Virus record (IMG/VR): IMGVR_UViG_3300017917_002573
Coordinates: 1-28,157 of that record
Length of the DNA: 28,157 bases
DNA from: a virus
Reading direction: 5' to 3' (one strand)
Part shown: piece after piece, positions 3,326-27,328 of the stretch
How the letters are laid out: each line of letters begins with the position of its first letter
How positions within the stretch are numbered: the first letter of the stretch is position 1
Translations under genes and position numbers: made by a program
Notes under the pieces: generated by a model
Told to the model about the DNA's origin: nothing
The model's input: only the letters and a program-made list of their open reading frames with translations
Database searches by the model: none

Positions 3326-3610
3326 CTACTTTAAATTTTCTTCTCTACAAGACCTCTCACGGTATAACCTACCTTCAGGGGTCTGTATTTCTTTCCATTC
3401 TGTACACACAACTTGTTTCTCTACCACAACTGGAACAGGTTGTTGAGACTCTATAATTTTATAAACAACTGCGCCACCAATGATAGTTGGAATTACCCAA
3501 CCAATTCCTGGTTTCCATACGTGATGTGGATGATGAGGATGGTGTCTGTATGGTTGTGCAAAAGCAGTTATTGAAATCGTTGCAAGTAAAAGAACCAAAA
3601 ACTTTTTCAT
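3326..3610 (-). CDS. Small exported His-rich protein
   Basis: A 94-aa protein with a clear Sec signal peptide (residues 1 to about 18, cleavage after TAFA). A His/Pro cluster HHPHHPHH follows near 23-30, then a hydrophobic glycine-containing stretch GIGWVIPTIIGGAVVY (about 36-51). The polar C-terminal third has two cysteines (CTEWKEIQ and RSCREE) that could form a disulphide. It is last in the leftward operon, 9 nt after the cyclase stop, with AAGGAGT before its ATG. The His cluster could bind metal and the hydrophobic stretch could touch a membrane; neither is shown. Family not recognised. Its place after curli-type genes and its export suggest an envelope role. Confidence 0.7.
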   Translation of the reverse strand: MKKFLVLLLATISITAFAQPYRHHPHHPHHVWKPGIGWVIPTIIGGAVVYKIIESQQPVPVVVEKQVVCTEWKEIQTPEGRLYRERSCREENLK

Positions 3611-3619
3611 AATAACTCC

Positions 3620-7321: not shown

Positions 7322-7330
7322 CTTTTTTCC

Positions 7331-8122
7331 TTATTCTGGTCTTTTAAAAGGTTGTTTAAATTTCCAAAGTCCCTTTTCTTCACCTTGATATACAACTTCT
7401 TCGACTGCTAAATCAATAGCAGCCTTTACAGCATATATAGTCGGTTCAGTAGAGGTACTTCCTATTTCGTTTTCAAAAGAACGTGTTCCCTGATTAAAAA
7501 ACTTAAAAGTAGCAACAGATGTTGCGATGCTCAATAAAGTTTTTTGTGTGTTAACAGTCAGAATAACTTCTCCTGTTTGCACATTCACAGCTCTCAGAGA
7601 TACCGTTACAATATCTTCTTGGTATTGTGTCATTGGCCCAATACCCAAATAACGCCATCCAAAACCACCAGTTCTTTTGTTTGTATCATATGACACAATA
7701 GAACCTTCAATAATCATGCCTGCATAAAGAATTGGTCTAAGAATGTTTGGTTCTTTAACTTCATCTCTTGCTGAACGAATCAGCTGACGTTCCTTCATAA
7801 GGTTGTCCAAACCAACACGTTCGACAATCCTAAACCACTTACCATCACCAACGTCAGCAAGTGCTTTTAATAATAAAGAATCTGCACCTTGTGTAACGGC
7901 CGAACTTAATTTTGCCACAGAACCACTGTCTTTACGTTGCCCAGTTTTATCGGTAAAATTGTAAACAGCTACAACGATAGGTTGCCCAGTTTCAGGTTCC
8001 GGAAATGGTCTTTTGAATTGTGTGGGTGCGACTTTTTCGGCCTCTTGTGTGTCCCAAACCATAGGCAGTTCTGCACACGCCGTCAATAAAACCAACAGCA
8101 ATAAAGTTATTATCTTTTTCAT
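7331..8122 (-). CDS. csgG: CsgG-like curli secretion pore lipoprotein
   Basis: A 263-aa outer-membrane lipoprotein, close to E. coli CsgG (277 aa), which forms the nonameric curli secretion channel. The signal peptide ends in the lipobox LTAC with Cys16. Family motifs run along the whole length: VAVYNFTDKTGQ (about 51-62), VERVGLDNLMKERQLI (about 101-116), GSIVSYDTNKRTGG, the segment with LGIGP and QYQEDIVTVSLRAVNVQTGEV, and NTQKTLLSI. The C-terminal helices follow STEPTIYAVKAAIDLAVEE. No part of the fold appears to be missing. It overlaps csgF by one base (TAATG), and a curlin-repeat substrate gene lies 9 bp downstream. CsgE, the periplasmic gatekeeper, is not visible nearby. Confidence 0.93.
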   Translation of the reverse strand: MKKIITLLLLVLLTACAELPMVWDTQEAEKVAPTQFKRPFPEPETGQPIVVAVYNFTDKTGQRKDSGSVAKLSSAVTQGADSLLLKALADVGDGKWFRIVERVGLDNLMKERQLIRSARDEVKEPNILRPILYAGMIIEGSIVSYDTNKRTGGFGWRYLGIGPMTQYQEDIVTVSLRAVNVQTGEVILTVNTQKTLLSIATSVATFKFFNQGTRSFENEIGSTSTEPTIYAVKAAIDLAVEEVVYQGEEKGLWKFKQPFKRPE

Positions 8123-8577
8123 TAGAATTTAAACTGTGCAATAGGAATTGTAATTTGTGTTACACTTCCATCAGCTCCCACGACAGTCAGGCTAATCTCA
8201 TCACCATTCTTTGAATAAGAAATCGTGTTGCCAGAAATTACAACAGTTCCTGAGTTTTTAGGATTCTCACCGAAAAGATTATTTACCAATTGTGAAGACA
8301 GTTGAGCGTACACACGCGACTCAAAGTTATTGAGAAACTTTGCCAGATTCGTATTGCCTGCGGCCGCCGCGGCATCTTTAGCTGCTTGAAGTTTTGCGGC
8401 TTCTATGGCGTCCCTTCTTGTTTTCTCGCTATTCTCGATAGTTTGCACATGTGCAGAATAAGAAATACCGTTGAACGCGGGTGATTTAAATGTTTGAACT
8501 AGTTCAGCTTGGCTTATTTGTGTCAGAGTCATCAAAACGATAACCACCAGACTCTTCAATGTTCTTATTTTTTTCAT
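8122..8577 (-). CDS. csgF: CsgF-like curli assembly factor
   Basis: A 151-aa exported protein with signal peptide 1-24 (cleavage before ELVQTF). Mature CsgF starts with a short segment that plugs into the CsgG channel and contains a Asn-Pro-Ser-Phe-Gly-like motif; here the equivalent is KSPAFNGIS near 31. The middle NFESRVYAQLSSQLVNNLFG (about 84-103) matches the CsgF helix, and the C-terminal beta-rich part holds ISYSKNGDEISLTVVG. An Ala-rich helix (AAKLQAAKDAAAAAG) is longer than usual. CsgF couples secretion to nucleation on the cell surface. The start lies inside the upstream membrane-protein gene (74-bp overlap), with GAGGGAAC about 10 nt before the ATG. Confidence 0.85.
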   Translation of the reverse strand: MKKIRTLKSLVVIVLMTLTQISQAELVQTFKSPAFNGISYSAHVQTIENSEKTRRDAIEAAKLQAAKDAAAAAGNTNLAKFLNNFESRVYAQLSSQLVNNLFGENPKNSGTVVISGNTISYSKNGDEISLTVVGADGSVTQITIPIAQFKF

Positions 8578-8809
8578 CTTTGAGTTCCCTCAACATTAAT
8601 ACGATATTGACTTTTTGATTCAAACGAATCAAATCATTATCCAACATTCTAATACGATCAATCAAAGCTATTAGTGTACTATTTGCTTCACCTAAAACAG
8701 GTTTAATTTCTTTTGTTACCCAAGTCCAAACATAATATATAAAATATCCCATACCAGCAGCACTGACAATAGGAAATCCATATTTGTTAATCAGTTCTGC
8801 TATGTCCAT
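8504..8809 (-). CDS. Small holin-like membrane protein (BhlA/UviB/YvrJ-type), copy 2
   Basis: A 101-aa protein. MDIAELINKYGFPIVS opens it, a membrane helix follows (about 12-33), and then comes a charged coiled-coil-like region (about 40-75) and an acidic tail. The helix-plus-coil layout with an N-terminal GFPIV box recalls small BhlA/UviB/YvrJ proteins, some of which are bacteriocin or phage holin-like. It is a paralogue of the protein at 8966-9244: both start MD and reach GFPI at residue 11. That alignment and an AGAAAG upstream favour the ATG at 8809 over the TTG at 8815. Its 3' end overlaps csgF by 74 bp. It could be a holin, or a membrane partner of the curli genes it precedes; the sequence does not decide. 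Confidence 0.65.
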   Translation of the reverse strand: MDIAELINKYGFPIVSAAGMGYFIYYVWTWVTKEIKPVLGEANSTLIALIDRIRMLDNDLIRLNQKVNIVLMLRELKDEKNKNIEESGGYRFDDSDTNKPS

Positions 8810-8963
8810 CTTCAATCTTTCTAAACACTACGCGACCATTTGGTGCAACATATAACTTATATAAATCTCCTGGCAGTGCATTAATTTCTGACGCTTTTAA
8901 TTGTTCGTCCATTATAATAGTGCCATCATCCATCACTTCAAATAAGTAATCTACAAACATCAT
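8787..8963 (-). CDS. 58-aa acidic hypothetical protein
   Basis: A short frame starting with a double ATG (8963 and 8960) preceded by GGAGAG, ending at TAA (8787-8789). The protein begins MMFVDYLFEVMDDGTIIMDE and continues with LPGDLYKLYVAPNGRVVFRK, a beta-hairpin-like pattern. It fills the space between the two holin-like paralogues and overlaps the second by 23 bp, matching the compact style of the operon. No family recognised. The good ribosome site, the absence of any gap on either side and a natural codon pattern support it as real. Confidence 0.6.
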   Translation of the reverse strand: MMFVDYLFEVMDDGTIIMDEQLKASEINALPGDLYKLYVAPNGRVVFRKIEDGHSRTD

Positions 8964-8965
8964 TT

Positions 8966-9244
8966 TTAATCTCTCCGTGCATCATTTTTGCCGTCTGCTC
9001 GAGCAATCCGGTCAACGTCTGGTTTTACACCTAATGCGTTTGACACTAAGGTATCAATACGAATGACATCGTGGTTCATAGTTTTAACTCGGTTATCTAA
9101 GGCCATAATAATACCTTTAATACCGTTGACAGAACCTGTAACACCCTGTAGAATAAATTTGAGTGTTAAAAAGACGAAATATCCTGCTGCCAAAGACGAT
9201 GCAATAGGAAATCCAACTTCCGCGACCAGTTTAAAAAAGTCCAC
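8966..9244 (-). CDS. Small holin-like membrane protein (BhlA/UviB/YvrJ-type), copy 1
   Basis: A 92-aa protein that starts the leftward operon. MDFFKLVAEVGFPIASS leads into a membrane helix (about 12-34, AAGYFVFLTLKFIL). A helical segment (VNGIKGIIMALDNRVKTMNHDVIRID, about 38-63) and a charged C-terminus (DGKNDARRD) follow. It uses a GTG start at 9244 with AAAGGTGA just upstream. It aligns from end to end with the gene at 8504-8809 at the level of layout and the GFPI box, so the pair probably arose by duplication. A holin-like or membrane-scaffold role is possible; I cannot assign one. Confidence 0.65.
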   Translation of the reverse strand: MDFFKLVAEVGFPIASSLAAGYFVFLTLKFILQGVTGSVNGIKGIIMALDNRVKTMNHDVIRIDTLVSNALGVKPDVDRIARADGKNDARRD

Positions 9245-13610: not shown

Positions 13611-14940
13611 TGAAGAGTTTCTCAGAAAAGTTTTACCTTTTCTAAAAGAAGAATATTTTACTGAAAGAACTGATAGAACAATCTTCAATGAAATTTCATC
13701 ATTCACACAAAGTTACAATGTTTCACCGACGATTGAAGCTATTACTTTGGCCGTCAAAGAGAAGAGAAATCTGTCGGATGATGAGGTGGAAAAATGCGAA
13801 ACGAATCTCAAACAGATTGAAGAATCTTCACGAGAAAGATCCGAGATTCAATGGCTTGTTGACAAAACCGAAAAGTTTTGCCAAGAGAAGGCGATATACA
13901 ATGCAGTATTGGGGTCTATTTCTATTCTCGATGGAAAAGACAAAGCACACGACAAAGGTCAGATTCCCAAGATACTATCGGATGCCCTGGCAGTAAGTTT
14001 TGATAGTTCCGTTGGCCACGATTATTTGGAAAACAGTGATGAACGATATGATTTCTATCACAGAAAAGAAGAGCGTATTCCTTTTGACCTAGAATTCTTC
14101 AACAGAATCACAAAAGGTGGTCTGCCTGCAAAAACACTGAACATTGCTTTGGCTGGTACTGGTGTAGGTAAGTCTTTGTTCATGTGTCACGTTGCTGCTG
14201 GTTGTATGGTACAAGGTAAGAATGTTTTGTACATAACTATGGAAATGGCCGAAGAGAAGATTGCTGAACGTATTGATGCAAACTTACTCAATGTGACGAT
14301 TGATGAATTGACAGAGTTACCTAAAGAATTGTATGATAAAAAGATTACAAAATTGAAGGACAAAGTTGTTGGTAAACTAATCATCAAGGAATATCCAACC
14401 GCATCGGCCTCGACAACACACTTTAGAACGTTACTCAACGAACTTAATCTCAAGAAGTCTTTTGTGCCCGATATTATCTTCATTGACTATCTCAACATTT
14501 GTTGTTCTGCTCGTATCAAAGCCGGAGCAAACGTTAATTCATATACGTATGTTAAAGCTATTGCTGAAGAGTTGCGAGGCATGGCTGTCGAGTTCGGTGT
14601 TCCCATCGTTTCAGCTACACAAACAACACGCAGTGGATATACGAGTAGTGATCCAGGATTGGAAGATACTTCAGAATCGTTTGGATTACCAGCCACAGCA
14701 GACTTGATGTTTGCGCTGATTACTTCCGAAGATTTGGAAGAACTTGGTCAAATTATGGTCAAACAGTTGAAGAATCGTTACTCCGATCCAACACATTATA
14801 AGAGATTCGTTATTGGTGTTGACAGAGCGAAGATGAAGTTGTATGATGTTGAACAGTCTGCACAAATAGATATTGTGGATTCTGGCCCAGCACCATCACA
14901 AAAACCTCAGAAAAAATCATTTGATGGATTTAAAGTATGA
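13570..14940 (+). CDS. 41: Replicative DNA helicase, DnaB-family (gp41-like)
   Basis: A 456-aa hexameric helicase of the T4 gp41/DnaB family. I start at the internal ATG at 13570: it has an upstream AGGA about 8 nt away and yields MKLEQTILKNLIYNEEFLRK, which lines up with the gp41 N-terminus. The N-terminal helical domain covers about 1-130. The RecA-like core has Walker A AGTGVGKS (195-202), the catalytic Glu in LYITMEMAEE near 225, Walker B IIFIDYL with Asp306, and VSATQTTRSGY as the sensor/DNA loop. It overlaps the upstream gene by 41 bp and the downstream gene by 4 bp. Confidence 0.95.
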   Translation: MKLEQTILKNLIYNEEFLRKVLPFLKEEYFTERTDRTIFNEISSFTQSYNVSPTIEAITLAVKEKRNLSDDEVEKCETNLKQIEESSRERSEIQWLVDKTEKFCQEKAIYNAVLGSISILDGKDKAHDKGQIPKILSDALAVSFDSSVGHDYLENSDERYDFYHRKEERIPFDLEFFNRITKGGLPAKTLNIALAGTGVGKSLFMCHVAAGCMVQGKNVLYITMEMAEEKIAERIDANLLNVTIDELTELPKELYDKKITKLKDKVVGKLIIKEYPTASASTTHFRTLLNELNLKKSFVPDIIFIDYLNICCSARIKAGANVNSYTYVKAIAEELRGMAVEFGVPIVSATQTTRSGYTSSDPGLEDTSESFGLPATADLMFALITSEDLEELGQIMVKQLKNRYSDPTHYKRFVIGVDRAKMKLYDVEQSAQIDIVDSGPAPSQKPQKKSFDGFKV

Positions 14941-16043
14941 GTTTAAGTAAAGAAGATGCATTACACTGCGCAAAGGTTTTTCATGATTACTTTTCAAACT
15001 TTCACCGCGTGGATGATTACATGCGGGATCAAAAACTGGCATCTTTGGCTGATTTGCCTTCAAGTCCTTTATTTCCTTTAGAGGATGATTTATTCTCAGA
15101 CTTCACTGTCCATCCTAACGATATGGATTTTGAGGTCTGTGAAATAGACCAGGAACAATGGGAAACACTTCTCAACATAACATCATCGCATATTAATGTC
15201 GCACCAGTTGGACGCCAAATAAGACTTGCGGTAATAGAAAAGAACACACGAAAGATTGTAGGTTTCATTCGATTGGGTTCACCGGTCATTAACTGCAAAC
15301 CAAGAAACGAAATGCTGGGTCAAGTGTTCACGCAACAACCAGAATGGGCCACAAGATTTAATAATTCTGCAATGATGGGATTTGTGATTGTTCCTGCGCA
15401 ACCTTTTGGTTATAACTATCTTGGAGGTAAACTTCTGGCAGCCATCTGTTGTTCTCATACAACACGAGAAATCATCAACCGTAAATATGGTATGAATTTA
15501 TGTTTATTTGAGACTACCAGTTTGTATGGCAGTTCAAAGCAAGTTTCTCAGTATGATGGTATGAAACCTTACATTCGTTATAAAGGTTTGACTGACAGTG
15601 ATTTTATTCCGTTGATGCACGGAAAACCTTACGAAGACCTAAGAAATTTTGTGGAAAGTAAGATCGGTACTATCGTAGATGAAGACTCTTCAAGTAAAAA
15701 ATTGAAGACTACGATGAGAATTGTGGCTTTAACCAAAGCTGCACTTAAAGGATCAACTGAAGCATCAGCATTCATGGAAACGATTGAGAATGCAAAAAGG
15801 TTGACAGAACAAAAAAGATATTATATTTCCCACTACGGATTCAAAAACTTTACCGATTACGTAAACTGTAATACCGACACGTTGGTGAAAGATGACACTT
15901 ATGATAAGTTTGAGCTTGACAATGTGGTAAAATGGTGGAAGAATAAATCATCGAATCGTTTTGAGACATTAAAAATCGAAAACAGATTGAGAACTGAATT
16001 GGAGGTTTGGACTTCAGGAAAGCCGATAGAGATTATCAGATAA
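14937..16043 (+). CDS. DUF4338 / DruA-like protein (tentative)
   Basis: A 368-aa protein linked to the helicase gene by ATGA. The central region (about 100-225) has VGFIRLGSPVINC, MMGFVIVPAQPFGYNYLGGK, REIINRKYGMNLCLFETTSL and a YDGMKPYIRYKGLTDS block. The arrangement of an Ile-Pro strand, a Asn-Leu-x-x-Lys helix, a YG...LFETT strand and a closing G-T turn resembles DUF4338, the family that includes DruA of the Druantia defence system. The C-terminal third is helical and charged. Whether it takes part in replication or in interference between phages is unknown. The family call is by pattern only. ATGA coupling and a good length argue for a real, expressed gene. Confidence 0.55.
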   Translation: MSLSKEDALHCAKVFHDYFSNFHRVDDYMRDQKLASLADLPSSPLFPLEDDLFSDFTVHPNDMDFEVCEIDQEQWETLLNITSSHINVAPVGRQIRLAVIEKNTRKIVGFIRLGSPVINCKPRNEMLGQVFTQQPEWATRFNNSAMMGFVIVPAQPFGYNYLGGKLLAAICCSHTTREIINRKYGMNLCLFETTSLYGSSKQVSQYDGMKPYIRYKGLTDSDFIPLMHGKPYEDLRNFVESKIGTIVDEDSSSKKLKTTMRIVALTKAALKGSTEASAFMETIENAKRLTEQKRYYISHYGFKNFTDYVNCNTDTLVKDDTYDKFELDNVVKWWKNKSSNRFETLKIENRLRTELEVWTSGKPIEIIR

Positions 16044-17179: not shown

Positions 17180-17196
17180 TATTGATAGGTATTATT

Positions 17197-17946
17197 ATGA
17201 CAGCATCTGTGATTTTACCAACTACTGGTGCACCAGAGTTGAGAACTGCACTTGAAAGTGTATTGAATCAAACTTATGATACAACTTGTTATGTTGTTAT
17301 CGACGGCGATAAATTTGCACCTAAGGCCAGAACCATACTCAGTGATTACTTGGGCAACAAGAATCTAAAGATATGTGAACTACCATTAAATGTTGGTGCA
17401 AATGGTTTCTATGGGCACCGCGTTTATGCCGCTTTCACACATCTTATTAACACCGACTATGTTCTTTACCTCGACCAAGATAACTGGTTTGATAAAAATC
17501 ATGTCGAGTCGTGTGTGAACACCATACAAAAAACCAATTCAGACTGGTGTTATTCTCTACGCAAAATATACAAAGAAAACGAGTTAATATGTACCGACGA
17601 CTGCGAATCATTAGGTAAATGGGAATGTTTTCAGGGTTATCCACACATAGATACAAGTTCGTATTGCCTTAAAACAAAAGTTGCTGTATTATTGGCGCAA
17701 GTGTGGCATGGTGGTTGGGGTCAAGATAGGGTTTTCTATTCAGCCCTCAAACAGTACTTACCTAAGTATGAATGTACAAGGGATTATACTTTGAACTATC
17801 GTGTTGGTGGTAATGAAGGTTCTGTCAAACCAGAGTTCTTCCTTGCTGGTAATAAAATTATGAATGACAAATATAATGGAGAATTTCCATGGAGAAAAAA
17901 AATCTCATCATCGGAGCCTTCACTGGTTACACTTACAATCAACTAA
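17197..17946 (+). CDS. Family 2 glycosyltransferase (GT-A)
   Basis: A 249-aa enzyme opening with MTASVILPTTGAPELRTALE and SVLNQTYDTTCYVVIDGD, the standard GT2 N-terminus that binds the nucleotide sugar. The metal-binding DxD is YVLYLDQDNWF (near 90-100). WHGGWGQDRVFY near 170 fits the acceptor side with its catalytic Asp. I start at the ATG at 17197 (AGG 7 nt upstream) rather than an upstream TTG. Donor and acceptor sugars cannot be told. It opens a run of nine genes that overlap or abut, so it is probably the first gene of a glycan cassette. Confidence 0.82.
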   Translation: MTASVILPTTGAPELRTALESVLNQTYDTTCYVVIDGDKFAPKARTILSDYLGNKNLKICELPLNVGANGFYGHRVYAAFTHLINTDYVLYLDQDNWFDKNHVESCVNTIQKTNSDWCYSLRKIYKENELICTDDCESLGKWECFQGYPHIDTSSYCLKTKVAVLLAQVWHGGWGQDRVFYSALKQYLPKYECTRDYTLNYRVGGNEGSVKPEFFLAGNKIMNDKYNGEFPWRKKISSSEPSLVTLTIN

Positions 17947-18773
17947 AGCCTTGGGTTGAATCCATCGACCAGTGCGGATTCAAAGGCGACAAAGTAATGG
18001 TTGTGCAGAGAGCGTCCGAGGAAACTTTGGATGAACTTACTCGACAAGGTTTTCAAGTTATAATGGCCGATGTTCAACAAAACATTCCTATTCACGTACT
18101 ACGATTCTTATACATCTATGAATTTTTGCGTAATCATGGTGAACAATATGAATATGTTGTAACTACAGATGTGAAGGATGTATATTTTCAAATTGATCCG
18201 TTCGAATGGTTGAATTTTCATCTTACTGATGGTAAAAAACTAGTTGTTGGTTCTGAAAGCATCAGATATAAAGATGAACCTTGGGGCAATGAAAATCTGA
18301 TGCAAACATATGGACCATACATTCACAGTTTGTTTAAAGATAACGAAATTTATAATGTTGGAACTCTAGGTGGAACATCTGATTATATTAAAGACCTAAC
18401 ATTCAACATTTTTACCAATGCGGTCAATAGACCTATACCAATCGTAGACCAGGCTGTTTTCAACGTCCTCATACAAACACAACCATATAAAGATGTTACA
18501 TACTTTGCAAAACAAGCTGATGGTTGGGCTTGTCAAGCAGGAACGACCGTTGATCCATCCAAAATCGAATCTTTTCGGCCGCACCTAACTGAATCTGAAC
18601 CGATTTGGCAAGACAATAAAGTTTTGACAGGCCAAGATTCGCAACATTCTCAAAAAGGAACGCCATTTTGTATCGTACATCAATATGATAGAGTTCCAGA
18701 ATGGAAAAAGTATGTGCAAGAATCTTTTAAACAAGAAGATCCAAATAATTTTTTTACGTATAGGACATTATAA
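17889..18773 (+). CDS. Probable glycosyltransferase (GT-A, GT8/GT77-like)
   Basis: A 294-aa protein overlapping the previous gene by 58 bp, with GGAGAA 5 nt before its ATG. It starts with a nucleotide-binding strand (NLIIGAFTGYTY). YEYVVTTDVKDVYFQIDPFEWL (about 94-115) gives a DxxD/DxD-type metal motif and resembles the nucleotide-sugar transferases that carry TDxxDVxF. The segment NEIYNVGTLGGTSDYI, with IPIVDQAVFNVLI after it, has the N-x-G and D-Q-x pattern seen in GT8/GT77 enzymes. The specific family is uncertain. No membrane segment, so it works in the cytoplasm. Confidence 0.7.
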   Translation: MEKKNLIIGAFTGYTYNQLKPWVESIDQCGFKGDKVMVVQRASEETLDELTRQGFQVIMADVQQNIPIHVLRFLYIYEFLRNHGEQYEYVVTTDVKDVYFQIDPFEWLNFHLTDGKKLVVGSESIRYKDEPWGNENLMQTYGPYIHSLFKDNEIYNVGTLGGTSDYIKDLTFNIFTNAVNRPIPIVDQAVFNVLIQTQPYKDVTYFAKQADGWACQAGTTVDPSKIESFRPHLTESEPIWQDNKVLTGQDSQHSQKGTPFCIVHQYDRVPEWKKYVQESFKQEDPNNFFTYRTL

Positions 18774-19345
18774 TGAGTGAATACATTACATTTAATACTA
18801 ACCAACAAGCGTTTGGCACTAAACCTGTGACAGTTTTTAAATGTTCAGGATTTGGTTTAGGTGCGATGATTAAAGATATGCAACATCCAGTTGGGTTGGA
18901 AATTGGATGTGACATTGGAGATACTACACAGTTTCTTTTGGATTCTAATCCAACACTCTATTTGTATTCAATTGATCCATATGAAAACTATATTGATTGG
19001 AACGGCCGCCCATTAAATGAACGTGAGGAAGTTTATCAATCTGCACAAAGTAGACTAAAACCATATTGGAATCGTTTCGAGTTGGTACGCAAAACATCAG
19101 ATGATGCTGTTGGTTATTTTGATGAAGGTATGTTCGATTTCATCTTCATTGATGGATTGCACACCTACGAACAACTCACAAAGGATTGTGATAATTATTA
19201 TAAGTTTCTCAAACCGGGAGGCATTTTCTCTGGTCACGATTTTACCGCAATCGAGGGGGTACACCGTGCCGCCACAGAGTTTGCTGTCAAAGTAAACAAA
19301 GAAATTCTTATCACTGAATGTGATGTTTGGTATTGGATCAAATGA
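18773..19345 (+). CDS. Class I SAM-dependent methyltransferase (Methyltransf_24-like)
   Basis: A 190-aa enzyme with a Rossmann SAM-binding start: VGLEIGCDIGDTTQFLL (about 40-56), an acidic residue at the end of strand 2 (YLYSIDPYENY), and MFDFIFIDGLHTYEQLTKD (about 119-137). LKPGGIFSGHDF then marks the Methyltransf_24 family. Members often modify sugars or act in glycan clusters, which fits its neighbours. One-base stop/start overlap (TAATG) with the upstream gene and ATGA with the downstream one. Likely product is a methylated sugar on the cassette's glycan (inference). Confidence 0.85.
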   Translation: MSEYITFNTNQQAFGTKPVTVFKCSGFGLGAMIKDMQHPVGLEIGCDIGDTTQFLLDSNPTLYLYSIDPYENYIDWNGRPLNEREEVYQSAQSRLKPYWNRFELVRKTSDDAVGYFDEGMFDFIFIDGLHTYEQLTKDCDNYYKFLKPGGIFSGHDFTAIEGVHRAATEFAVKVNKEILITECDVWYWIK

Positions 19346-20028
19346 AAAAGTGCATGATACTTTCAGGTCAATATCGAACATTCGATAAGACCAAAGAAAA
19401 CATCAAAAAATTTATTGATGCGAATGAACTGGATGTTTATTGCCATCTTTGGTCGATTAATCCAAAAGAAATCGATGATATAAAATATTCTCTATCACCT
19501 AAAGCCATTTTCTGTGAAGATTGGGAAAAATACAAAACCGAATTCGAAGATATGGAAAAAAGAGTACGGAGTGCTAATCCAAAAAATGCACCAAATGATA
19601 AAATTGCTGGTAATGCATCCATGAATTTTGGTCGCAAACGAGCATTCGATTTGATACAAGAAAAATACGACACAGTAATCTACTGTCGGTATGACATACA
19701 ATTCAATTATATTTTTCAATTTGAAAATGTTGATGTTGTGTATACACCATTGGAAGAATCTTATAATCTCATATCGGATATTTTTGCGATGATGCCCTAC
19801 GACATGGCGAAAAATTATTTTCTGTATGATGATTACGAGAGACTGCATTCGACACAATTCGAACCAGTGTTTGAGGATTATCTTCGGTTCAAGAAAGTAT
19901 ACGGTGAAGAAAATATTCGCATACATAAGTACGAAAGATATTGTCCTCATATGATGTTGTTGAGAAATTTGGTGATGACAAACACTCCCTTTTCGACGGT
20001 GAATTTACCAGTGAGTTTGCAAAGATGA
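19342..20028 (+). CDS. Glycosyltransferase-like protein, SGQ-R-F family, copy 1
   Basis: A 228-aa protein coupled to the methyltransferase by ATGA. It begins CMILSGQYRTFDKTKENIKK, followed by LDVYCHLWS, the same layout as the next gene. A probable metal or substrate motif is TVIYCRYDIQFN near 113-124, where an R-x-D takes the place of the usual DxD. RRAF-type Arg-rich helix and a C-terminal CPHMMLLRNLV helix follow. I call it glycosyltransferase-like from the fold pattern and context; activity is not shown. The in-frame region before 19342 belongs to the methyltransferase and was left out. Confidence 0.6.
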   Translation: MKKCMILSGQYRTFDKTKENIKKFIDANELDVYCHLWSINPKEIDDIKYSLSPKAIFCEDWEKYKTEFEDMEKRVRSANPKNAPNDKIAGNASMNFGRKRAFDLIQEKYDTVIYCRYDIQFNYIFQFENVDVVYTPLEESYNLISDIFAMMPYDMAKNYFLYDDYERLHSTQFEPVFEDYLRFKKVYGEENIRIHKYERYCPHMMLLRNLVMTNTPFSTVNLPVSLQR

Positions 20029-20702
20029 AGATTGCATTGTGTTTTTCTGGTCAAGCCAGATCATTTGAACAAGGTTATGAATTCTATAAAAAGAATTTGT
20101 TGGACCATTATGATGTCGATGTCTATATTCATTCATGGAAATTTGATGATGAGAGAAAACTTTTAGAACTTTATAGGCCCGTAAGTTATGAATTTCAAAC
20201 TCCTCCTCTTGGCAATTTTGATAATAGGTACACCAACACTCCCAATGCACAAAAACATCCTCCAAGATTCACATACAGGATGTTTTATTCCATGTACAAA
20301 TGCAGTAAACTCGTACAGAGACAATATGATTGGATTATTAAATCTAGAACAGATTATGCGTTGAATGTTGTAATACCGTTTGCAGAACTGGACAATTCAA
20401 AACTTTACATACCAAATTGTCGAATGGTACCAGAAAGAGATTTCGGAAACGACCAATTCGCTTTCAGTTCACAAGAAAACATGATGAAATATATGTCAAC
20501 ATTTATGAATATTGACGCATACTATAATGAAGGAAATCAGTTTATTGGTGAAAATATGATGAGTGCTAATTTACACGAACATAACCTTCATGGTGAAAAC
20601 CTTGTTTATGTTAACATGAATAATCCTTTTCCTCCCGGACCACACAACGGAACATGGCATTCATTAATACGTGAAGATTATGACAAATGGGCCAAGTCGT
20701 AG
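20025..20702 (+). CDS. Glycosyltransferase-like protein, SGQ-R-F family, copy 2
   Basis: A 225-aa protein beginning KIALCFSGQARSFEQGYEFY, then VDVYIHSWKFDDE, and an IIKSRTDYALN motif near 107-117. These correspond one by one to the motifs of the preceding gene (SGQ-R-F, DVY-H-W, R-x-D), so the two are paralogues that probably act on successive steps of one glycan. I start at the ATG at 20025, which overlaps the upstream stop (ATGA). A longer frame from 19941 runs inside the upstream gene. Family number unknown to me. Confidence 0.6.
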   Translation: MKIALCFSGQARSFEQGYEFYKKNLLDHYDVDVYIHSWKFDDERKLLELYRPVSYEFQTPPLGNFDNRYTNTPNAQKHPPRFTYRMFYSMYKCSKLVQRQYDWIIKSRTDYALNVVIPFAELDNSKLYIPNCRMVPERDFGNDQFAFSSQENMMKYMSTFMNIDAYYNEGNQFIGENMMSANLHEHNLHGENLVYVNMNNPFPPGPHNGTWHSLIREDYDKWAKS

Positions 20703-21439
20703 AATTAATTGGGCATTCTGGATGTAGTGTCTTTCTGAAAGAATATTCTCCTGGCGCACCATATGTTGAAAAGACAGGAGATATACACAGAAACATCGAA
20801 CGCATGACTGCTTTATATGATGCAGGATATCGTGTTCCGAGAATTTATGAAAAAGACGAAAGTACCATGAGAATGGAATACATCCATGGTTTGGATATTA
20901 AAACACATCTCACATATAATTCCATTAAAAATCTTTCCAAATTTATTATTGGTACATTAGAGAGTTTTGCAAAAGATTCAGTTGACAAGGATTATACAGA
21001 AGTCTACAATCAAAAACTCCAATGGCTGACCGAACAATCCGAATTACCTTTCACTAAAACAGAATTGATCGATAGACTACCAAAATTATTGCCACAGTCT
21101 ATGTACCATGGTGATATGACATTGGAGAATATCATAAGTACAAAAGATGGGTTTTGGATGATTGATCCTGTAACCATCGAATATGATTCATACATATTCG
21201 ATGTTGCAAAAATGCGGCAAGATATGGAATGTAAATGGTTTCTACGACACTCTGATATAAAAATAGACGTTAAACTAAAACATCTTCAGGATAGAATTTT
21301 AACCGCATTTCCTTTGGCCAAAAACGATTCATTGTTGGTACTAATGTTACTAAGAGTTTTTCGTCATTGCAAAAAAGATGATTTTAATTACAATTTCATA
21401 AAACAAAATATAACAAAGATATGGAAAAATATAAACTAA
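20687..21439 (+). CDS. APH/choline-kinase-fold small-molecule kinase (LicA-like)
   Basis: A 250-aa protein kinase-fold enzyme of the aminoglycoside/choline kinase group. The catalytic loop YHGDMTLENII gives His141, Asp143 and Asn148 of the Brenner motif. The metal-binding Asp is in FWMIDPV (Asp160). An N-terminal GHSGCSVFLKEYS glycine-loop-like segment with Lys18 and MRMEYIHGLDI as the hinge complete the site. The target is a small molecule or sugar alcohol rather than a protein. With a LicC/GlmU-type nucleotidyltransferase two genes downstream it suggests a LicA-LicC-like activation route. Overlaps neighbours by 16 and 19 bp. Confidence 0.72.
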   Translation: MGQVVELIGHSGCSVFLKEYSPGAPYVEKTGDIHRNIERMTALYDAGYRVPRIYEKDESTMRMEYIHGLDIKTHLTYNSIKNLSKFIIGTLESFAKDSVDKDYTEVYNQKLQWLTEQSELPFTKTELIDRLPKLLPQSMYHGDMTLENIISTKDGFWMIDPVTIEYDSYIFDVAKMRQDMECKWFLRHSDIKIDVKLKHLQDRILTAFPLAKNDSLLVLMLLRVFRHCKKDDFNYNFIKQNITKIWKNIN

Positions 21440-22182
21440 TTGTTATGTTGACTTGTCATGAAAACAAAGAATCATTAAAAGATAGTATAGAAAATATTTT
21501 GAAGTTTAATGAAAATGTTTGCATTCTAGTGAATGATGGAACAAATGAAAATCTGGAAGATTTGAATAACGAAAATGTGCACATCATCAAAAGAAAAGTG
21601 CCATTTAGTAGATTTGACACAATGGTGCCATTACACATAGAACTTAAAGATTACATGATTGAAAAAAATATCATTTCAGATTATGTGGTATTACTATCAT
21701 CAAATCAGTTATTCATAAAAAAACATCTTTATGATTTTATTAGATCATTTGATGCTTCATATTTTGAAAGAGAAATGGATTCTGGTTGTATAACACAATT
21801 GTTGAGACATGAGGCTTTTAAAAAATGTTATAATGAATTAGGAAAAGATAATTTTAAATACCAATCAAACCATGATGGTATGTTTTTCACATATGAAATT
21901 TTCAATAATATGATGAACTTTTTTGATGGTTTCCGAGGTTTAAAAATAGACTTTCATGGTGAAGAATTTTTATACGTTGCATATCTCATGAAAAATATGT
22001 CTATAGAAAAACTGGCAAAATTTGAAAAATACAACTATTGGCAACCCGAATGGAGAAGAACATTAGATCCTATTAAATTGGATGAACTAAAACGATGTAT
22101 CGAAAATAACTATTATATTATTAAAAGAGTTTCGAGAGATATCAACAATGAAGTTAGAAAATTTGTGAGAGAAATGGAGTGA
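21421..22182 (+). CDS. Probable glycosyltransferase, core-2/I-branching (GT14)-like
   Basis: A 253-aa protein that starts with a short strand and a His-Glu-Asn turn (LIVMLTCHENKESLKDSIEN), then VCILVNDGTNENLEDL. YVVLLSSNQLFIKKHLYDFI (about 89-108) resembles the LSpsD-type segment of GT14 enzymes. A C-terminal FHGEEFLYVAYLM followed by WQPEWRRTLDP provides the acidic and Trp/Arg residues expected of the acceptor site. Very A-rich coding. It overlaps the kinase gene by 19 bp. The family call is tentative; glycosyltransferase activity is mainly inferred from context. Confidence 0.5.
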   Translation: MEKYKLIVMLTCHENKESLKDSIENILKFNENVCILVNDGTNENLEDLNNENVHIIKRKVPFSRFDTMVPLHIELKDYMIEKNIISDYVVLLSSNQLFIKKHLYDFIRSFDASYFEREMDSGCITQLLRHEAFKKCYNELGKDNFKYQSNHDGMFFTYEIFNNMMNFFDGFRGLKIDFHGEEFLYVAYLMKNMSIEKLAKFEKYNYWQPEWRRTLDPIKLDELKRCIENNYYIIKRVSRDINNEVRKFVREME

Positions 22183-22184
22183 TT

Positions 22185-23216
22185 ATGGATATGCATGTTA
22201 TTGTTCCGGCTGCTGGCCGATCTAGTCGGTTTCCGGATATGAAACCAAAATACTTACTGTACGATTACAAACACGAACTGATGTTGATGAATGCATTAAA
22301 ACCTTATCTAAAATATAAGGTAATAGTTGGTATTCTAAAAGAACACGACGAGAAGTATCATGCATCGGAATTTATTCGTCACGATTTCGGTGACCAGGTC
22401 AAGATCGTAATCATTGATGAACCAACAAGTGGACCTGCCGAAACAGTTGCAGAAATCATTAAGAAAAGTAACTTATTTGATGAACCCATCTTCATTAAAG
22501 ATTGTGATAGTTTCTTTGAACACGAAGTAACCGATGGAAGTTATGTCTGTGTATCAAATATCAAAGACCACGAAGTCCTAAAAAAATTATCATCTAAAAG
22601 CTTTGTGGTATCAAACGAACAGGGAATTATTACCGACATTATAGAAAAAAATGTAGTGTCAGATACTTTCTGTGTCGGTGGTTACAAATTCGAATCCGCA
22701 CTTCTTTTCATACAGGCTTATAATAATCTTCGCGATGAACCAGTTGAATTGTTCGTTTCAAATATTATTGAAGAATGTTTAGATCATAATATTCTGTTCA
22801 CCAAGAAGAAAGTCACAAACTATACTGATGTGGGAACTGCACAAGATTGGTTTGAATACAATGATAAGCCTGTCATCTTTTGTGATATTGATGGTACTCT
22901 AATTGTAAGCCAGGCCAGGGTTGGAAATAATTCATATAGTTCAGAACCCACACCTTTACAGAAAAATGTCGATAAAATGTTGGAATGGCAAAAGAAAGGT
23001 GCTCAAATCATATTCACTACAGCTCGGTCGCCAGCGGTAGCCACAACAACTTGGAATATATTGTATAATCTTGGTTTTAGAGATTTTCAATTAATTACAG
23101 GTCTACTGAATACTCGCAGAATTTTAATTAACGATTTCAATACTGCAAACCCTTATCCTAGGGCTGAAGCTGTAAATATTCCTCGTAATGCAGATATTTT
23201 AAATTACTACCTATGA
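22185..23216 (+). CDS. Nucleotidyltransferase-HAD phosphatase fusion
   Basis: A 343-aa two-domain enzyme. Domain 1 (about 1-225) is a sugar/choline-phosphate nucleotidyltransferase: HVIVPAAGRSSRFPDMKPKYLL holds the nucleotide-binding signature and IFIKDCDSFF the metal Asp pair (106/108). Domain 2 (about 228-343) is a HAD hydrolase: IFCDIDGTLI with nucleophile Asp234 and Asp236, IIFTTARSP as motif II, and ILINDF (Asp317) as the last acidic motif. Domain 1 would form an NDP-linked precursor, and domain 2 may remove a phosphate from an intermediate. I prefer the ATG at 22185 (GGAG 6 nt upstream), although a GTG at 22179 overlaps the upstream stop. Confidence 0.8.
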   Translation: MDMHVIVPAAGRSSRFPDMKPKYLLYDYKHELMLMNALKPYLKYKVIVGILKEHDEKYHASEFIRHDFGDQVKIVIIDEPTSGPAETVAEIIKKSNLFDEPIFIKDCDSFFEHEVTDGSYVCVSNIKDHEVLKKLSSKSFVVSNEQGIITDIIEKNVVSDTFCVGGYKFESALLFIQAYNNLRDEPVELFVSNIIEECLDHNILFTKKKVTNYTDVGTAQDWFEYNDKPVIFCDIDGTLIVSQARVGNNSYSSEPTPLQKNVDKMLEWQKKGAQIIFTTARSPAVATTTWNILYNLGFRDFQLITGLLNTRRILINDFNTANPYPRAEAVNIPRNADILNYYL

Positions 23217-23908
23217 TTCCTGATAAAAATTTATTCATTGTTACGTCCGCAGTAAAACCTGTTATTGGAGTCTACTCTCACAATGATAGATACAAACAAA
23301 CAATAGAATCTTTAGTGTCCGTTCGTAAGAATGTTAAGGATGTAATAATTCTATTGGCGGATGTCTCTGTCATATCTTTAACTGAGGAAGAAAAGAAAGA
23401 ACTATCGCAGTATTGTGATATTTTCCTGGATGCGAGTAATATACCATTAGTTAGAGATATGTCGGCCGCCGGACATAAAAGTCATGCCGAAAATGCACTG
23501 TTATACAATGTATTAATGAATCTGAAATATGATATTCAATTACAGAGAATCATGCAACCTGTAAAAAGAATATTTAAATTCTCGGGCAGATCAGAACTGG
23601 ACGAAGGGTTCAATATAGAAGATTACGATAATCTATTTGGTAAATTCGTATTCAAACGAAGAATATCTACCTGGATGAATCCTGTGCAGAAAGATGCGAC
23701 ACATCTTTTGATTACCAGAATGTTCTCTTTTTGTCCGTCCCTGGTGGATGTTTATTTAGACGTAATTCGCAAAAATTTTGAAATTCTAAATTCTGTGGAT
23801 ACTGAACATGCACATTATGTTAATATACCAAAACAATATCTTGTGGAGTTTGATAGAATAGGTTGTTGGGGTTATCTGGCCGGTAATGGACAAGTCGAAA
23901 GGTATTAA
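23213..23908 (+). CDS. Unknown protein at end of glycan cassette, possibly GT-like
   Basis: A 231-aa protein joined to the fusion gene by ATGA. It starts with a strand pattern (NLFIVTSAVKPVIGVYSHND) and then VKDVIILLADVSVISL, alternating strands and helices like a nucleotide-sugar-binding fold. IFKFSGRSELDEGFN near 121-135 may hold the active site, and the C-terminal third is HYVNIPKQYLVEFDRIGCWG. No family recognised. Given eight linked glycan genes upstream, a transferase or sugar-modifying role is a fair guess. A 119-bp promoter-bearing gap follows, so this is the last gene of the cassette. Confidence 0.6.
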   Translation: MIPDKNLFIVTSAVKPVIGVYSHNDRYKQTIESLVSVRKNVKDVIILLADVSVISLTEEEKKELSQYCDIFLDASNIPLVRDMSAAGHKSHAENALLYNVLMNLKYDIQLQRIMQPVKRIFKFSGRSELDEGFNIEDYDNLFGKFVFKRRISTWMNPVQKDATHLLITRMFSFCPSLVDVYLDVIRKNFEILNSVDTEHAHYVNIPKQYLVEFDRIGCWGYLAGNGQVERY

Positions 23909-23977: not shown

Positions 23978-23985
23978 TATAAATA
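23978..23985 (+). promoter_or_regulatory. T4-type late promoter box TATAAATA
   Basis: An exact match to the T4 late promoter -10 element, which is read by host RNA polymerase carrying the phage sigma gp55 and coactivators. It starts 50 bp before the ATG at 24028 and only 5 bp after the sigma70-type -10 box, so the same genes could be read early and late. Confidence 0.7.
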
Positions 23986-24027
23986 ACTCCACGGGCAACC
24001 AAAGTGTGTTGCATTCAAAGAGGCATA

Positions 24028-25203
24028 ATGAAGTTATTCAGAAGTTTCCTAAACGAAGAGGCCGAAGAGGGCGCAAAACTTAAGCATATCACGCATGCTG
24101 AAGACCGCCCGTTACAAAATGGATCCGAAGGATTCAAACATGCATACAACGCACTCAATCAAGCCCACGAACACATTAAATCAGGTGGAAACAGTTCCGC
24201 ACTAACAATGAAATATGACGGTTCCCCGTCGATTGTTTTTGGTCATCACCCAGAAAATGGTAAATTCTTTGTTGCGTCAAAATCAGCATTCAACAAGACA
24301 CCAAAACTAAATTACACTCACGCAGACATTCTAAAGAATCACGGTCATGCGCCTGGGTTGATGGCCAAATTGCACGATTCTCTGAATCACCTTAAGAAAA
24401 TTGCGCCCAAAACTGGTGTATACCAAGGTGATTTGATGTTCTCCGGTGACGATAAGAAAGAAACCAAACATGGCGTTTCTTTCACTCCAAACACCATCAC
24501 TTATACAGCAAAAGGTGAACAGGGAGATAAGATTCGTAAAGCCAAACTTGGCGTTATCGTACATACACAGTATCATGGAAAAGATATAACTTCCATGAAG
24601 TCTGATTCTCATCCAGATTTGCACAACTTCCATCATCATCCTGATGTGTGGCACAAATCTGCAAATATGGATACCAGAAACGTTCACTATTCCGAAAAAG
24701 ATCAAGCTGCATATCAAAAACATATGAATGCAGCGAAAAAATTACATGACGAACAAGGAAAAGACATGTATCGTGCTGTCACACCACATTCTGGTGCTGG
24801 CGGTCACTTAGAACAATACATTAATCATACCGTTCGTACAGATGAAACTCCATCAGCCAAAGGTTTGCAAACTTTCATACAGAATAAAGCAACCAAAGAA
24901 TCGAGTAAGCTTAAAACGCCTGCGGCTCAAGGAAGAAAAGAATCCGAAGCCAAGGCTCACACAAAACACATCGAAACGAATAAAAAACACTACGATAACC
25001 TATTAAAGATGCATCATCATCTGCAACAAGCTAAAGATGTGCTCGTCGATGTTCTGAACCAACACACCGGTGGGCTGGAACATGATATTGATGGTAAAAA
25101 GACGGATCCTGAAGGTTTTGTTGTTAACCACGCTGGCGAACCAACAAAATTGGTGAACCGCAAAGAATTTAGTAAAGCCAATCTCTTAAAAGTACGCAAA
25201 TGA
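24028..25203 (+). CDS. Nucleotidyltransferase/ligase-fold protein (DUF6267-like)
   Basis: A 391-aa protein. It carries motifs of the covalent nucleotidyltransferase (DNA/RNA ligase) superfamily: motif I MKYDGSPSI with candidate nucleophile Lys62, a GVYQGDLMF segment near 130-138 at the motif III position, DPEGFVV (360-366) as motif IV, and KLVNRKEF near 374-381 as motif V. I recall similar cyanophage proteins under DUF6267. His is abundant throughout. The first ten residues, MKLFRSFLNE, resemble the T4 capsid-targeting sequence. The ATG at 24028 has AAAGAGG 5 nt upstream and is preferred over upstream in-frame codons. The stacked early and late promoters sit just before it. Activity on RNA or DNA is unproven. 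Confidence 0.65.
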   Translation: MKLFRSFLNEEAEEGAKLKHITHAEDRPLQNGSEGFKHAYNALNQAHEHIKSGGNSSALTMKYDGSPSIVFGHHPENGKFFVASKSAFNKTPKLNYTHADILKNHGHAPGLMAKLHDSLNHLKKIAPKTGVYQGDLMFSGDDKKETKHGVSFTPNTITYTAKGEQGDKIRKAKLGVIVHTQYHGKDITSMKSDSHPDLHNFHHHPDVWHKSANMDTRNVHYSEKDQAAYQKHMNAAKKLHDEQGKDMYRAVTPHSGAGGHLEQYINHTVRTDETPSAKGLQTFIQNKATKESSKLKTPAAQGRKESEAKAHTKHIETNKKHYDNLLKMHHHLQQAKDVLVDVLNQHTGGLEHDIDGKKTDPEGFVVNHAGEPTKLVNRKEFSKANLLKVRK

Positions 25204-27035
25204 AATCTTTTCTAGACATAATTAAAGAAGAACAACAAAAAGAAAAACATCATGTGATGGCTTTTGGTCGCATGAATCCTCCTACTACTGGGCATCTGAA
25301 ACTCATCGACAAAGTTAAAGAAGTGGCCAAGAAAGTTGGAGGATCACATAGTGTCGTCGTGTCACACTCGCAAGACTCCAAGAAAAACCCACTTTCTTCG
25401 GAACAAAAACTAAAACATCTAAAAAGATATTCACCAGGTACGCACTTTGAGGCTTCTTCAAAAGAAAAACCTACATTCCTACATCATGCCGAACAGTTAC
25501 ACAAAAAAGGTGTGACACATCTACACATGGTGGCTGGATCCGACCGCGTTAAAGAGTACCACGATAAATTGCATCAGTATAACGGTACACACAAAGGTGC
25601 TTTGTTTAATTTCAAACATATAAAAGTGCATTCGGCTGGTCATCGCGATCCTGATGCAGAAGGCACCGAGGGCATGTCAGGTAGCAAAATGCGCGAACAT
25701 GCAAAGAACAAAGATTTCTCATCTTTCCGTCAAGGTGTGCCTTCTCATGTTGCGGACCACCACGCTCGTGAACTAATGCACGATGTTCGTAAAGGTATGG
25801 GTCTACATGAGTCCGTAGACCGCGGGCTATTTAAAGCAGTTTTCGTAACTGGTGGTCCAGGTTCAGGTAAAGATATTGTCATTCGTGAGGCTATCGCACA
25901 CTCCAGAATGGTAGAAATGAATTCGGTGCAGATATTCGAGTATTTGATGGACAAACAGAAATTGGCCACCAAAACAAATGATTTACGCCGAGAAGCAATT
26001 CGTAACCGTCAGCCTCTGATTGTTAATGGTCCAGCTGACGATGTTGACCGAATTCTTACAATCAAGGAAGAACTAGAGGAACTCGGATATTCCACGACTA
26101 TGGTTTTTGTCAATACGACCGACAAAATCAGTAAAGACCGAAATGAAAAGTTAGCCAAGACAATCGTAGAATCTATTAGACACGATAAATGGAAACAATC
26201 TCAACAAAATAAAGAAGTTTATTCGCAGAAATTTGATAGGTTTATTTCTTTTGATAATAACTCATCTCTGAGTGATCTTGAAGAGGAAATTACAGATACT
26301 TATCAAAAACTAAATATGTTTATTGAAAATAGAAATTTCAATGACGTTGCAATTTCCTGGTTGCAAAACCATGGTAAATTAGATATAAATGAGTCAATTA
26401 ATTATTTCTTGAAGGAAAATCAAAATGTTCAAAAAACTTCTAAATTTATTCAAGCCGTACGAAAAACCAGCAACAGAAGCGAAAGTCGAGGCCCCACTCT
26501 CAGAACCGGTACAGGTGATCCAGCCGCCGGTCCAGGAGACATTACCCCCGACAACAGAGCCGGCGACCCCAATGATGGAGACATCAAGTGGAACGCCCCA
26601 AGAAAAAGAGGTAGTTACATCTTCAGAACCTACTCCGAAGCCAGCGGAAGCCCAACCCTCAAAGTCACCCCGCAAACGCAAGAGCCCAAGTTCAACCAAG
26701 ACAAAGAAAAAGACAAAGTAAAGAAAAAGAGATTTACAGACTCTCCGACTGTTAACCAAAGAATGAGAAATACTGCCGGTGTCGGTCCAGAGTTTGATAC
26801 CAGACAACAAGGTACTGTATATCCAATGTCTGGTCTTGGTGACGTAACATACCGAGAAGAGAAGAATTTTAGAAGTTTTAGGAACACAATGAAAGAAGCC
26901 ATCGATGATCCGGGTGCAAATGATATGGGCGTCGGTGGTGTTCTTGGTGGTGCGAGCAACAAAGAGCCGTTGGTAACTCCAATGGACAAATTTGGCCAGT
27001 CCGGTATTACTATTAAAAAGAAAAAGAAAAAATGA
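25200..27035 (+). CDS. NMNAT-like nucleotidyltransferase + P-loop kinase fusion
   Basis: A 611-aa multidomain protein coupled by ATGA. Domain 1 (about 15-200) is a cytidylyltransferase/NMN-adenylyltransferase fold: GRMNPPTTGHLKL with the TxGH site, and GMSGSKMREH near 158-167 in place of ISSTxxR. Domain 2 (about 210-385) is a P-loop kinase with Walker A GGPGSGKD (218-225). This order resembles NadR (adenylyltransferase plus nicotinamide riboside kinase), so a role in NAD salvage is possible. The C-terminal 220 residues are low-complexity then conserved-looking (PEFDTRQQGTVYPMSGLGDV) and end in a Lys run. The N-terminus MKSFLDIIKE resembles the T4 capsid-targeting sequence. A second frame overlaps it at 26425-26721. 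Confidence 0.75.
   Translation: MKSFLDIIKEEQQKEKHHVMAFGRMNPPTTGHLKLIDKVKEVAKKVGGSHSVVVSHSQDSKKNPLSSEQKLKHLKRYSPGTHFEASSKEKPTFLHHAEQLHKKGVTHLHMVAGSDRVKEYHDKLHQYNGTHKGALFNFKHIKVHSAGHRDPDAEGTEGMSGSKMREHAKNKDFSSFRQGVPSHVADHHARELMHDVRKGMGLHESVDRGLFKAVFVTGGPGSGKDIVIREAIAHSRMVEMNSVQIFEYLMDKQKLATKTNDLRREAIRNRQPLIVNGPADDVDRILTIKEELEELGYSTTMVFVNTTDKISKDRNEKLAKTIVESIRHDKWKQSQQNKEVYSQKFDRFISFDNNSSLSDLEEEITDTYQKLNMFIENRNFNDVAISWLQNHGKLDINESINYFLKENQNVQKTSKFIQAVRKTSNRSESRGPTLRTGTGDPAAGPGDITPDNRAGDPNDGDIKWNAPRKRGSYIFRTYSEASGSPTLKVTPQTQEPKFNQDKEKDKVKKKRFTDSPTVNQRMRNTAGVGPEFDTRQQGTVYPMSGLGDVTYREEKNFRSFRNTMKEAIDDPGANDMGVGGVLGGASNKEPLVTPMDKFGQSGITIKKKKKK
26425..26721 (+). CDS. Possible overprinted small protein (alternative frame)
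   Basis: A 98-aa frame lying wholly inside the previous gene in the +1 frame. It begins MFKKLLNLFKPYEKP and continues as a Pro/Thr/Glu-rich chain with a basic Lys-rich tail (STKTKKKTK). AAGGA sits about 8 nt before its ATG, a usable ribosome site. The DNA here is clearly richer in C and G than the rest of the gene. The same bias would also arise if only the long frame were coding, because C in its third positions creates Pro/Thr/Ala/Ser in this frame. Reported as a candidate only. Confidence 0.3.
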   Translation: MFKKLLNLFKPYEKPATEAKVEAPLSEPVQVIQPPVQETLPPTTEPATPMMETSSGTPQEKEVVTSSEPTPKPAEAQPSKSPRKRKSPSSTKTKKKTK

Positions 27036-27328
27036 AAACTTTCAAAGAATTCTTGCACGAATCTAGCCCCGCTTGGCAACGTAAAGCTGGTAAAAATCCA
27101 GAAGGCGGTCTGAATCGCAAAGGTATCGCTTCATATCGCCGAGAACATCCAGGTTCAAAACTTTCGATGGCAGTAACAACACCGCCATCTAAACTAAAAC
27201 CAGGAAGTAAAGCTGCCAATCGCAGAAAGTCTTTCTGTGCAAGAATGGGTGGTATGCCAGGTCCGATGAAGGACGAGAAGGGTAGACCAACTAGAAAAGC
27301 ATTGTCACTACGCAAATGGAATTGCTAA
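27032..27328 (+). CDS. Small basic phage protein (DUF6321-like)
   Basis: A 98-aa, strongly basic protein coupled to the previous gene by ATGA. It begins MKTFKEFLHESSPAWQRKAG and continues NPEGGLNRKGIASYRREHPG, SKAANRRKSFCARMGGMPG and a closing TRKALSLRKWNC. I recall this block in cyanomyophage proteins under DUF6321. The lack of membrane segments and the high Lys/Arg content suit a nucleic-acid-binding or head-internal protein. The first ten residues are the closest of the three to the T4 capsid-targeting sequence, with LHE just before the presumed cut. Function unknown. Confidence 0.7.
   Translation: MKTFKEFLHESSPAWQRKAGKNPEGGLNRKGIASYRREHPGSKLSMAVTTPPSKLKPGSKAANRRKSFCARMGGMPGPMKDEKGRPTRKALSLRKWNC

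Follow-up and report, generated by a model that had tools for sequence, protein, structure and literature searches.

T4-type decapeptide tags on three consecutive late genes probably target enzymes to the phage head

Introduction

In bacteriophage T4, the internal proteins IPII and IPIII carry at their N-termini the decapeptide MKTYQEFIAE, a capsid-targeting sequence (CTS) that is processed by the gp21 protease. T4 internal proteins are basic, and mutagenesis of IPIII pointed to residues 4 and 7 as the main determinants of targeting and to residues 8 and 10 as those of processing; with Asp at residue 10, the protein was targeted but its processing was blocked (PMC9026906). A T4 review has proposed the CTS as a possible general packaging route for varied proteins in T4-like phages (PMC9026906). 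T4 also packages in its head a large enzyme, the ADP-ribosyltransferase Alt, which is processed by gp21 and injected, although Alt is not among the T4 proteins fitting the decapeptide rule used below. In this study, we analysed a single fragment of 28,157 nucleotides (positions 1 to 28,157 of the IMG/VR virus record IMGVR_UViG_3300017917_002573; hereafter, the window), in which the proteins of three consecutive genes, starting at 24028, 25200 and 27032, begin with similar decapeptides. We consider it highly probable that these are CTSs of the T4 type, by which the proteins would be targeted to the capsid, released by gp21 and delivered with the DNA.

Enzymes have also been found in the particles of cyanophages. 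According to the proteome papers, an NMNAT/cytidylyltransferase homologue was detected in the virions of S-SM1 (PMC3037559), S-SCSM1 (PMC9602691), S-CREM2 (PMC10665884) and S-SZBM1 (PMC9146016), and S-CBWM1 virions also contain an NMNAT-like protein. These proteins were published without a packaging mechanism. The entry route of NMNAT, kinases and S-adenosylmethionine (SAM) hydrolase in cyanophage virions, or their status as contaminants, has puzzled several groups, and the S-CREM2 authors ask for verification of the packaging of such proteins (PMC10665884). No paper tying the tag to cyanophage or pelagiphage cargo was found in the open-access literature searched (subscription papers lay outside the search).

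Results

Decapeptide starts and late promoter

The original prediction, made from the sequence of the window, had proposed that three consecutive genes start with a T4-like decapeptide, that LNE, IKE and LHE end at the same residue, and that an exact late promoter lies at 23978. The translations of the open reading frames (ORFs) matched the first of these points exactly, and the three triplets end at residue 10 in all three proteins (Table 1). The tags share with that of IPII and IPIII the length of ten residues, the N-terminal position, the aromatic residue 4, the hydrophobic residues 7 and 8, and E10; they differ from it in having F instead of Y at position 4. The three genes form one operon (24028-27328) with an ATGA overlap at both junctions. 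The promoter TATAAATA lies 50 nt before its first gene, and the same sequence was found 40-69 nt before the homologous gene in 87/109 related loci, as against 3% of random 300-nt stretches. The start codon at 24028 was preferred over an in-frame GTG at 24004, a choice backed by 88 aligned distinct relatives.

Table 1. Positions of the late promoter, the decapeptide tags and the tagged genes in the window
Feature	Position	Strand	Size	Basis or remark
T4-type late promoter TATAAATA	23978..23985	+		Single copy in the window, both strands counted
Capsid-targeting-like tag MKLFRSFLNE	24028..24057	+		Conservation in 88 distinct relatives
Tagged cargo 1: DUF6267/phrog_455, predicted RNA-ligase-fold nucleotidyltransferase	24028..25203	+	391 aa	PF19782, 7e-97
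Capsid-targeting-like tag MKSFLDIIKE	25200..25229	+		Conservation in 73 distinct relatives
Tagged cargo 2: NMNAT/cytidylyltransferase-like (~17-205), P-loop kinase-like (~210-395), disordered basic tail	25200..27035	+	611 aa	
Capsid-targeting-like tag MKTFKEFLHE	27032..27061	+		Sequence
Tagged cargo 3: DUF6321 basic protein	27032..27328	+	98 aa	PF19846, 9.6e-24; mature isoelectric point (pI) 11.5

For counting, a strict tag rule was defined as M..[FY]..[FYLIVM][LIVMF].E at the protein start. It was matched by 3/34 called genes of the window, whereas shuffled N-termini predict 0.01 matches and internal positions 0.02. The corresponding Poisson probability of about 1e-6 is optimistic, because the rule was composed after the tagged sequences had been read; the further tests described here are independent of this figure. 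When the rule was applied to T4, 3/272 called genes matched, namely the two MKTYQEFIAE proteins and gene 61.1. The product of gene 61.1 (54 aa; L326:18966-19130, minus strand) starts MKTFKEFIKED and may be an unrecognised internal protein.

Conservation of the tag

Among 88 distinct N-termini of the ligase family to which the 24028 protein belongs, M1 and E10 were invariant, F4 was present in 86/88, F or Y at position 7 in 88/88, and L or I at position 8 in 88/88. The entropy was 0.18 bits at residue 4, 0.51 at residue 8 and 0.57 at residue 7, and exceeded 1.7 bits, reaching up to 2.8, at the rest of the first ten residues. In an alignment extending down to 27% identity, no residue before residue 20 was conserved other than the invariant M1 and E10 and the nearly invariant F4. 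In the NMNAT family of 25200 (73 distinct relatives), F4 was invariant and E10 was kept in 69/73. The linker behind E10 varies in length among relatives. Codons at the tag columns differ synonymously, and selection therefore acts on the protein. At the level of sequence, natural conservation thus coincides with the four positions, 4, 7, 8 and 10, found by mutagenesis in IPIII.

The three tagged proteins

The original prediction had guessed a ligase fold for 24028, an NMNAT-like/kinase protein for 25200 and a small basic protein for 27032, and all three guesses were borne out. For 24028, order begins at about residue 20 of the AlphaFold model (mean predicted local distance difference test score, pLDDT, 89.8), residues 1-16 scoring below 50. 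When this model was compared with known structures using VIA-align, all 50 matches listed were ligases; the best was Naegleria RNA ligase (Z 9.3), and T4 Rnl2 gave Z 8.0. Foldseek gave weak matches, the best with an E-value of 0.015. The motifs KYDG (62-65), YQGD (132-135), PEGFVV (361-366) and TKLVNR (373-378) were found, and in the family K62, D64, E362 and G363 are invariant, with G65, K374 and V376 nearly so. Among the nucleotidyltransferase motifs, KYDG would correspond to motif I, PEGFVV to motif IV and TKLVNR to motif V; a long helical insertion separates them. The 24028 protein thus resembles Naegleria RNA ligase and T4 Rnl2 in fold (Z 8-9) and in nucleotidyltransferase motifs including KYDG, whereas it differs from them in the large insertion and in an identity of only 10-13%. 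We take the 24028 protein to be a predicted RNA-ligase-fold nucleotidyltransferase with putative ligase activity. Searched against PDB sequences, the profiles of the ligase and NMNAT families matched no ligase, NMNAT or kinase. In some relatives the ligase gene is split (L255:6661-8000; L116, L124, L166): a tagged N-terminal part of 146-148 aa ends ...HHD*, and the remainder lies in another frame, starting from an overlapping ATG (MTKKVSF...); 14 distinct short proteins of this kind were found.

The 25200 protein matched phrog_3041 (6e-66), phrog_395 (1.6e-44), TIGR00125 and PF01467 (CTP_transf_like; 2.6e-6), the last with 28.1 bits and thus above the Pfam cut-off of 21. Its family keeps GRMNPPTTGH and MSGxKMR. 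Foldseek matches were NadD-type adenylyltransferases and thymidylate, adenylate and polynucleotide kinases. The order of a nucleotidyltransferase followed by a P-loop kinase is that of NadR, and TIGR01526 matched weakly; however, its score of 17 bits lies far under the family cut-off of 341, which does not assign 25200 to NadR, and the enzymatic function of 25200 is putative. The protein shares phrog_395 and phrog_3041 with the NMNAT-like proteins of S-SM1, S-SCSM1, S-SZBM1, S-CREM2 and S-CBWM1 virions, but additionally has the kinase-like domain, and its basic tail is longer.

The DUF6321 domain of 27032 was also found in relatives behind other tagged N-terminal segments. It carries a tag in T4-like phages, and lacks one in contigs without gp21 and gp23; it is likewise untagged in Eistla, a podovirus lacking gp21. 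The calculated pI values of the mature forms of the three operon proteins are 9.4, 9.5 and 11.5. Basic cargo, late expression and unrelated proteins with only the tag in common are further likenesses to IPII and IPIII; in contrast to T4, where the internal proteins are of about 10-20 kDa, the window cargo includes large multidomain enzymes with mature masses of 42.6 and 67.9 kDa.

Tags, gp21 and cleavage sites in relatives

The record consists of the window only, and gp21 was therefore sought in relatives. The gp21 protease and the gp23 capsid protein were present in the same 18/31 long contigs carrying the operon, including the closest long relative, G001; from such close relatives, we infer that the phage of the window also has gp21. 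In alignment with gp23 of the relatives, the T4 gp23 cleavage site (FLTE|A) falls close to LNE, LAE or LTE. Furthermore, gp22 of G001 begins MGKFNLSE|A, and its gp21 has IKE, ITE and LTE near the N-terminus. The (L/I)xE specificity therefore seems to be kept.

Four long relatives have 3-4 tagged genes per genome, all in one cluster, where 0.06-0.19 would be expected. In 232 loci, 314 distinct tagged proteins were found, which fell into 31 groups, roughly 20 of them credible distinct families; at least two groups appear to be false positives, namely MFRYEVVLKE and a fragment of a glycosyltransferase. A coverage rule was used for this clustering, single linkage having joined families through common small domains. 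In the fully scanned contigs G009 and G011 (107 and 115 kb, gp21-negative, with DUF6321 present), none of 231 genes was tagged. No evidence of gene absence was taken from the gp21-negative contigs of 53-101 kb with other tagged genes (L028, L189, L123, L140, L107), because they look like fragments of T4-like phages.

Tagged proteins in published virion proteomes

The four virion-detected NMNAT homologues whose starts were checked are tagged: MKKFSAFLNE in S-SM1, MKSFLQFLKE in S-SCSM1, MKNFSSFLTE in S-CREM2 and, one residue shorter, MRFRQFIIE in S-SZBM1. When alternative starts were allowed, 4/4 strictly tagged proteins of S-CREM2 were in its virion list (p=0.0014): a SAM lyase (PF23780; MKDFDSFLEE), a kinase-like protein (VKRFDAFLTE), NMNAT and gp136 (MQTFSMFFSE). 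With S-CREM2 and S-SCSM1 pooled, 5/6 tagged proteins and 91/518 untagged ones (18%) were listed (p=0.001); for S-SCSM1 alone, the association was not significant (p=0.31). S-SZBM1 and S-SCSM1 have ligase homologues without the tag, and neither of these appears in the published virion lists. Two further virion-detected S-CREM2 proteins lie outside the strict rule, namely gp13 (MKDLHSFLTE) and gp12 (L325:7704-10313, minus strand), which has the tag-like LRFASFMAEA at residues 17-26. The annotation of gp12 as Cas9 looks unsafe because no Pfam match was obtained at E 0.01.

The cargo clusters also encode small virion-detected proteins, S-CREM2 gp160 (L324:28342-29235) and S-SCSM1 ORF97 (L320:43121-43306). 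Each contains a near copy of a segment of the N-terminal arm of gp23 of the same phage (GFTGAAAPEGPVAGYDPLM vs GFTGAAAPGGPNAGFDPVM), with scores of 95 and 83 against shuffled maxima of 51 and 49. As judged from the sequence, the segment is a candidate for a capsid-arm mimic or a second mode of attachment to the shell.

Discussion

The reading of the decapeptides as T4-like CTSs, as originally predicted, is supported by the pattern of conservation, the co-occurrence with the protease, the late promoter and the virion proteomics of homologues. The gp55-type promoter at 23978 would drive transcription of the operon late in infection. Through its amphipathic start, in which residues 4 and 7 are hydrophobic, each protein would bind the scaffolding core of the prohead and be carried inside, and during maturation gp21 would cut behind (L/I)xE at residue 10 to free the cargo. 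Once freed, the basic proteins would remain with the DNA in the head and pass with it into the next host. There the cargo would act early, plausibly as a kit for RNA repair, or kindred nucleotidyl-transfer reactions, and for NAD metabolism, with the 27032 protein being DNA-binding-like; one may speculate that at entry the cargo counters host defences based on tRNA cleavage or NAD depletion. We infer the cut after residue 10, the binding to the scaffolding core, the injection and the biochemical roles of the cargo, and presence in virions is supported by the published mass spectrometry of tagged homologues in phages other than that of the window.

Several points weigh against this reading. The window, a fragment of 28 kb, does not contain gp21. 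In the NMNAT family, L, I or V is commoner than F at position 7. The S-CREM2 test comprises four proteins and, with only the gene caller's best start, comes to 2/2 (p=0.04); the strictly tagged ORF30 of S-SCSM1 was undetected by mass spectrometry; and CsCl-purified particles may hold contaminants, as the S-CREM2 authors state (PMC10665884). The chief loose end is the residue after the putative cut, which is E in 132/314 and K in 45/314 tagged proteins, that is, in more than half, whereas the cited T4 examples have A.

This last point would suit a tag that targets the protein to the prohead core but stays on, the cargo being packaged in tagged form like T4 IPIII with Asp10. We regard this as improbable. 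All 88 distinct N-termini of the ligase family keep E10, and conservation is as strong at positions 8 and 10 as at positions 4 and 7, which an uncut tag leaves unexplained because residues 8 and 10 serve processing and the Asp10 protein is still targeted; moreover, gp23 and gp22 of relatives retain (L/I)xE sites. Even less credit is given to a general protein-protein docking helix that brings the enzymes together inside the cell during infection, or on a component of the tail or baseplate, with detection in virions being due to co-purification. A short helix is indeed predicted at residues 4-8, and contamination was raised by the S-CREM2 proteome authors; however, in the published virion lists tagged proteins are over-represented and the untagged ligase homologues are unlisted, the tag follows phages with gp21 and gp23, and its length and register match the T4 CTS. 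The motif is short and built of common residues, yet it is very improbable that the similarity reflects chance, shared ancestry of a single gene or a translation-start signal at the nucleotide level, since the tagged proteins come from unrelated families, 3-4 tagged genes occur per genome against 0.01-0.2 expected, none occurs in G009 and G011, and codons vary synonymously at the tag columns.

With the decapeptides taken as CTSs of the T4 type, the principle of the tag is already that of T4. Two things are new: its presence on large enzymes, encoded in a cargo operon that aquatic T4-like phages have conserved, and the sequence rule, which accounts for several unexplained virion-associated enzymes; for the latter, the tag offers both a mechanism and a sequence test. 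On balance, we lean towards a general head-loading code in open-water T4-like phages (Kyanoviridae and freshwater relatives), in which one mobile ten-residue tag would recruit whole enzymes into pre-made, injected kits for counter-defence and takeover. The recruited enzymes would include RNA-ligase-like, NMNAT/kinase, SAM lyase and protein-kinase-like proteins, among others. If this is true, the tag would allow the set of proteins that any such phage injects to be read from its genome. For the abundant T4-like phages of aquatic habitats, it would predict which proteins are injected, among them enzymes possibly active before phage gene expression.

Other genes of the window

The replication genes are separated from the cargo operon by glycosyltransferase-like, methyltransferase-like and nucleotidyltransferase/HAD-like genes (17182-23908), whereas cyanophages and pelagiphages have their cargo genes close behind the gp41 gene. 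A tagged protein encoded beside the ligase gene of Melnitz was compared with the product of window gene 16067 as a possible relative and proved to be unrelated. Directly after the gp41-like helicase gene, the product of 14937-16043 matched the DruA (Druantia) domain (PF14236, 4.6e-10). Ahead of the replication genes, on the minus strand (3326-9244), the translations read as a CHASE2/adenylate-cyclase-like membrane protein, a FecR-like protein, a curlin-repeat protein and CsgG-like and CsgF-like proteins, which are unusual company in a phage.

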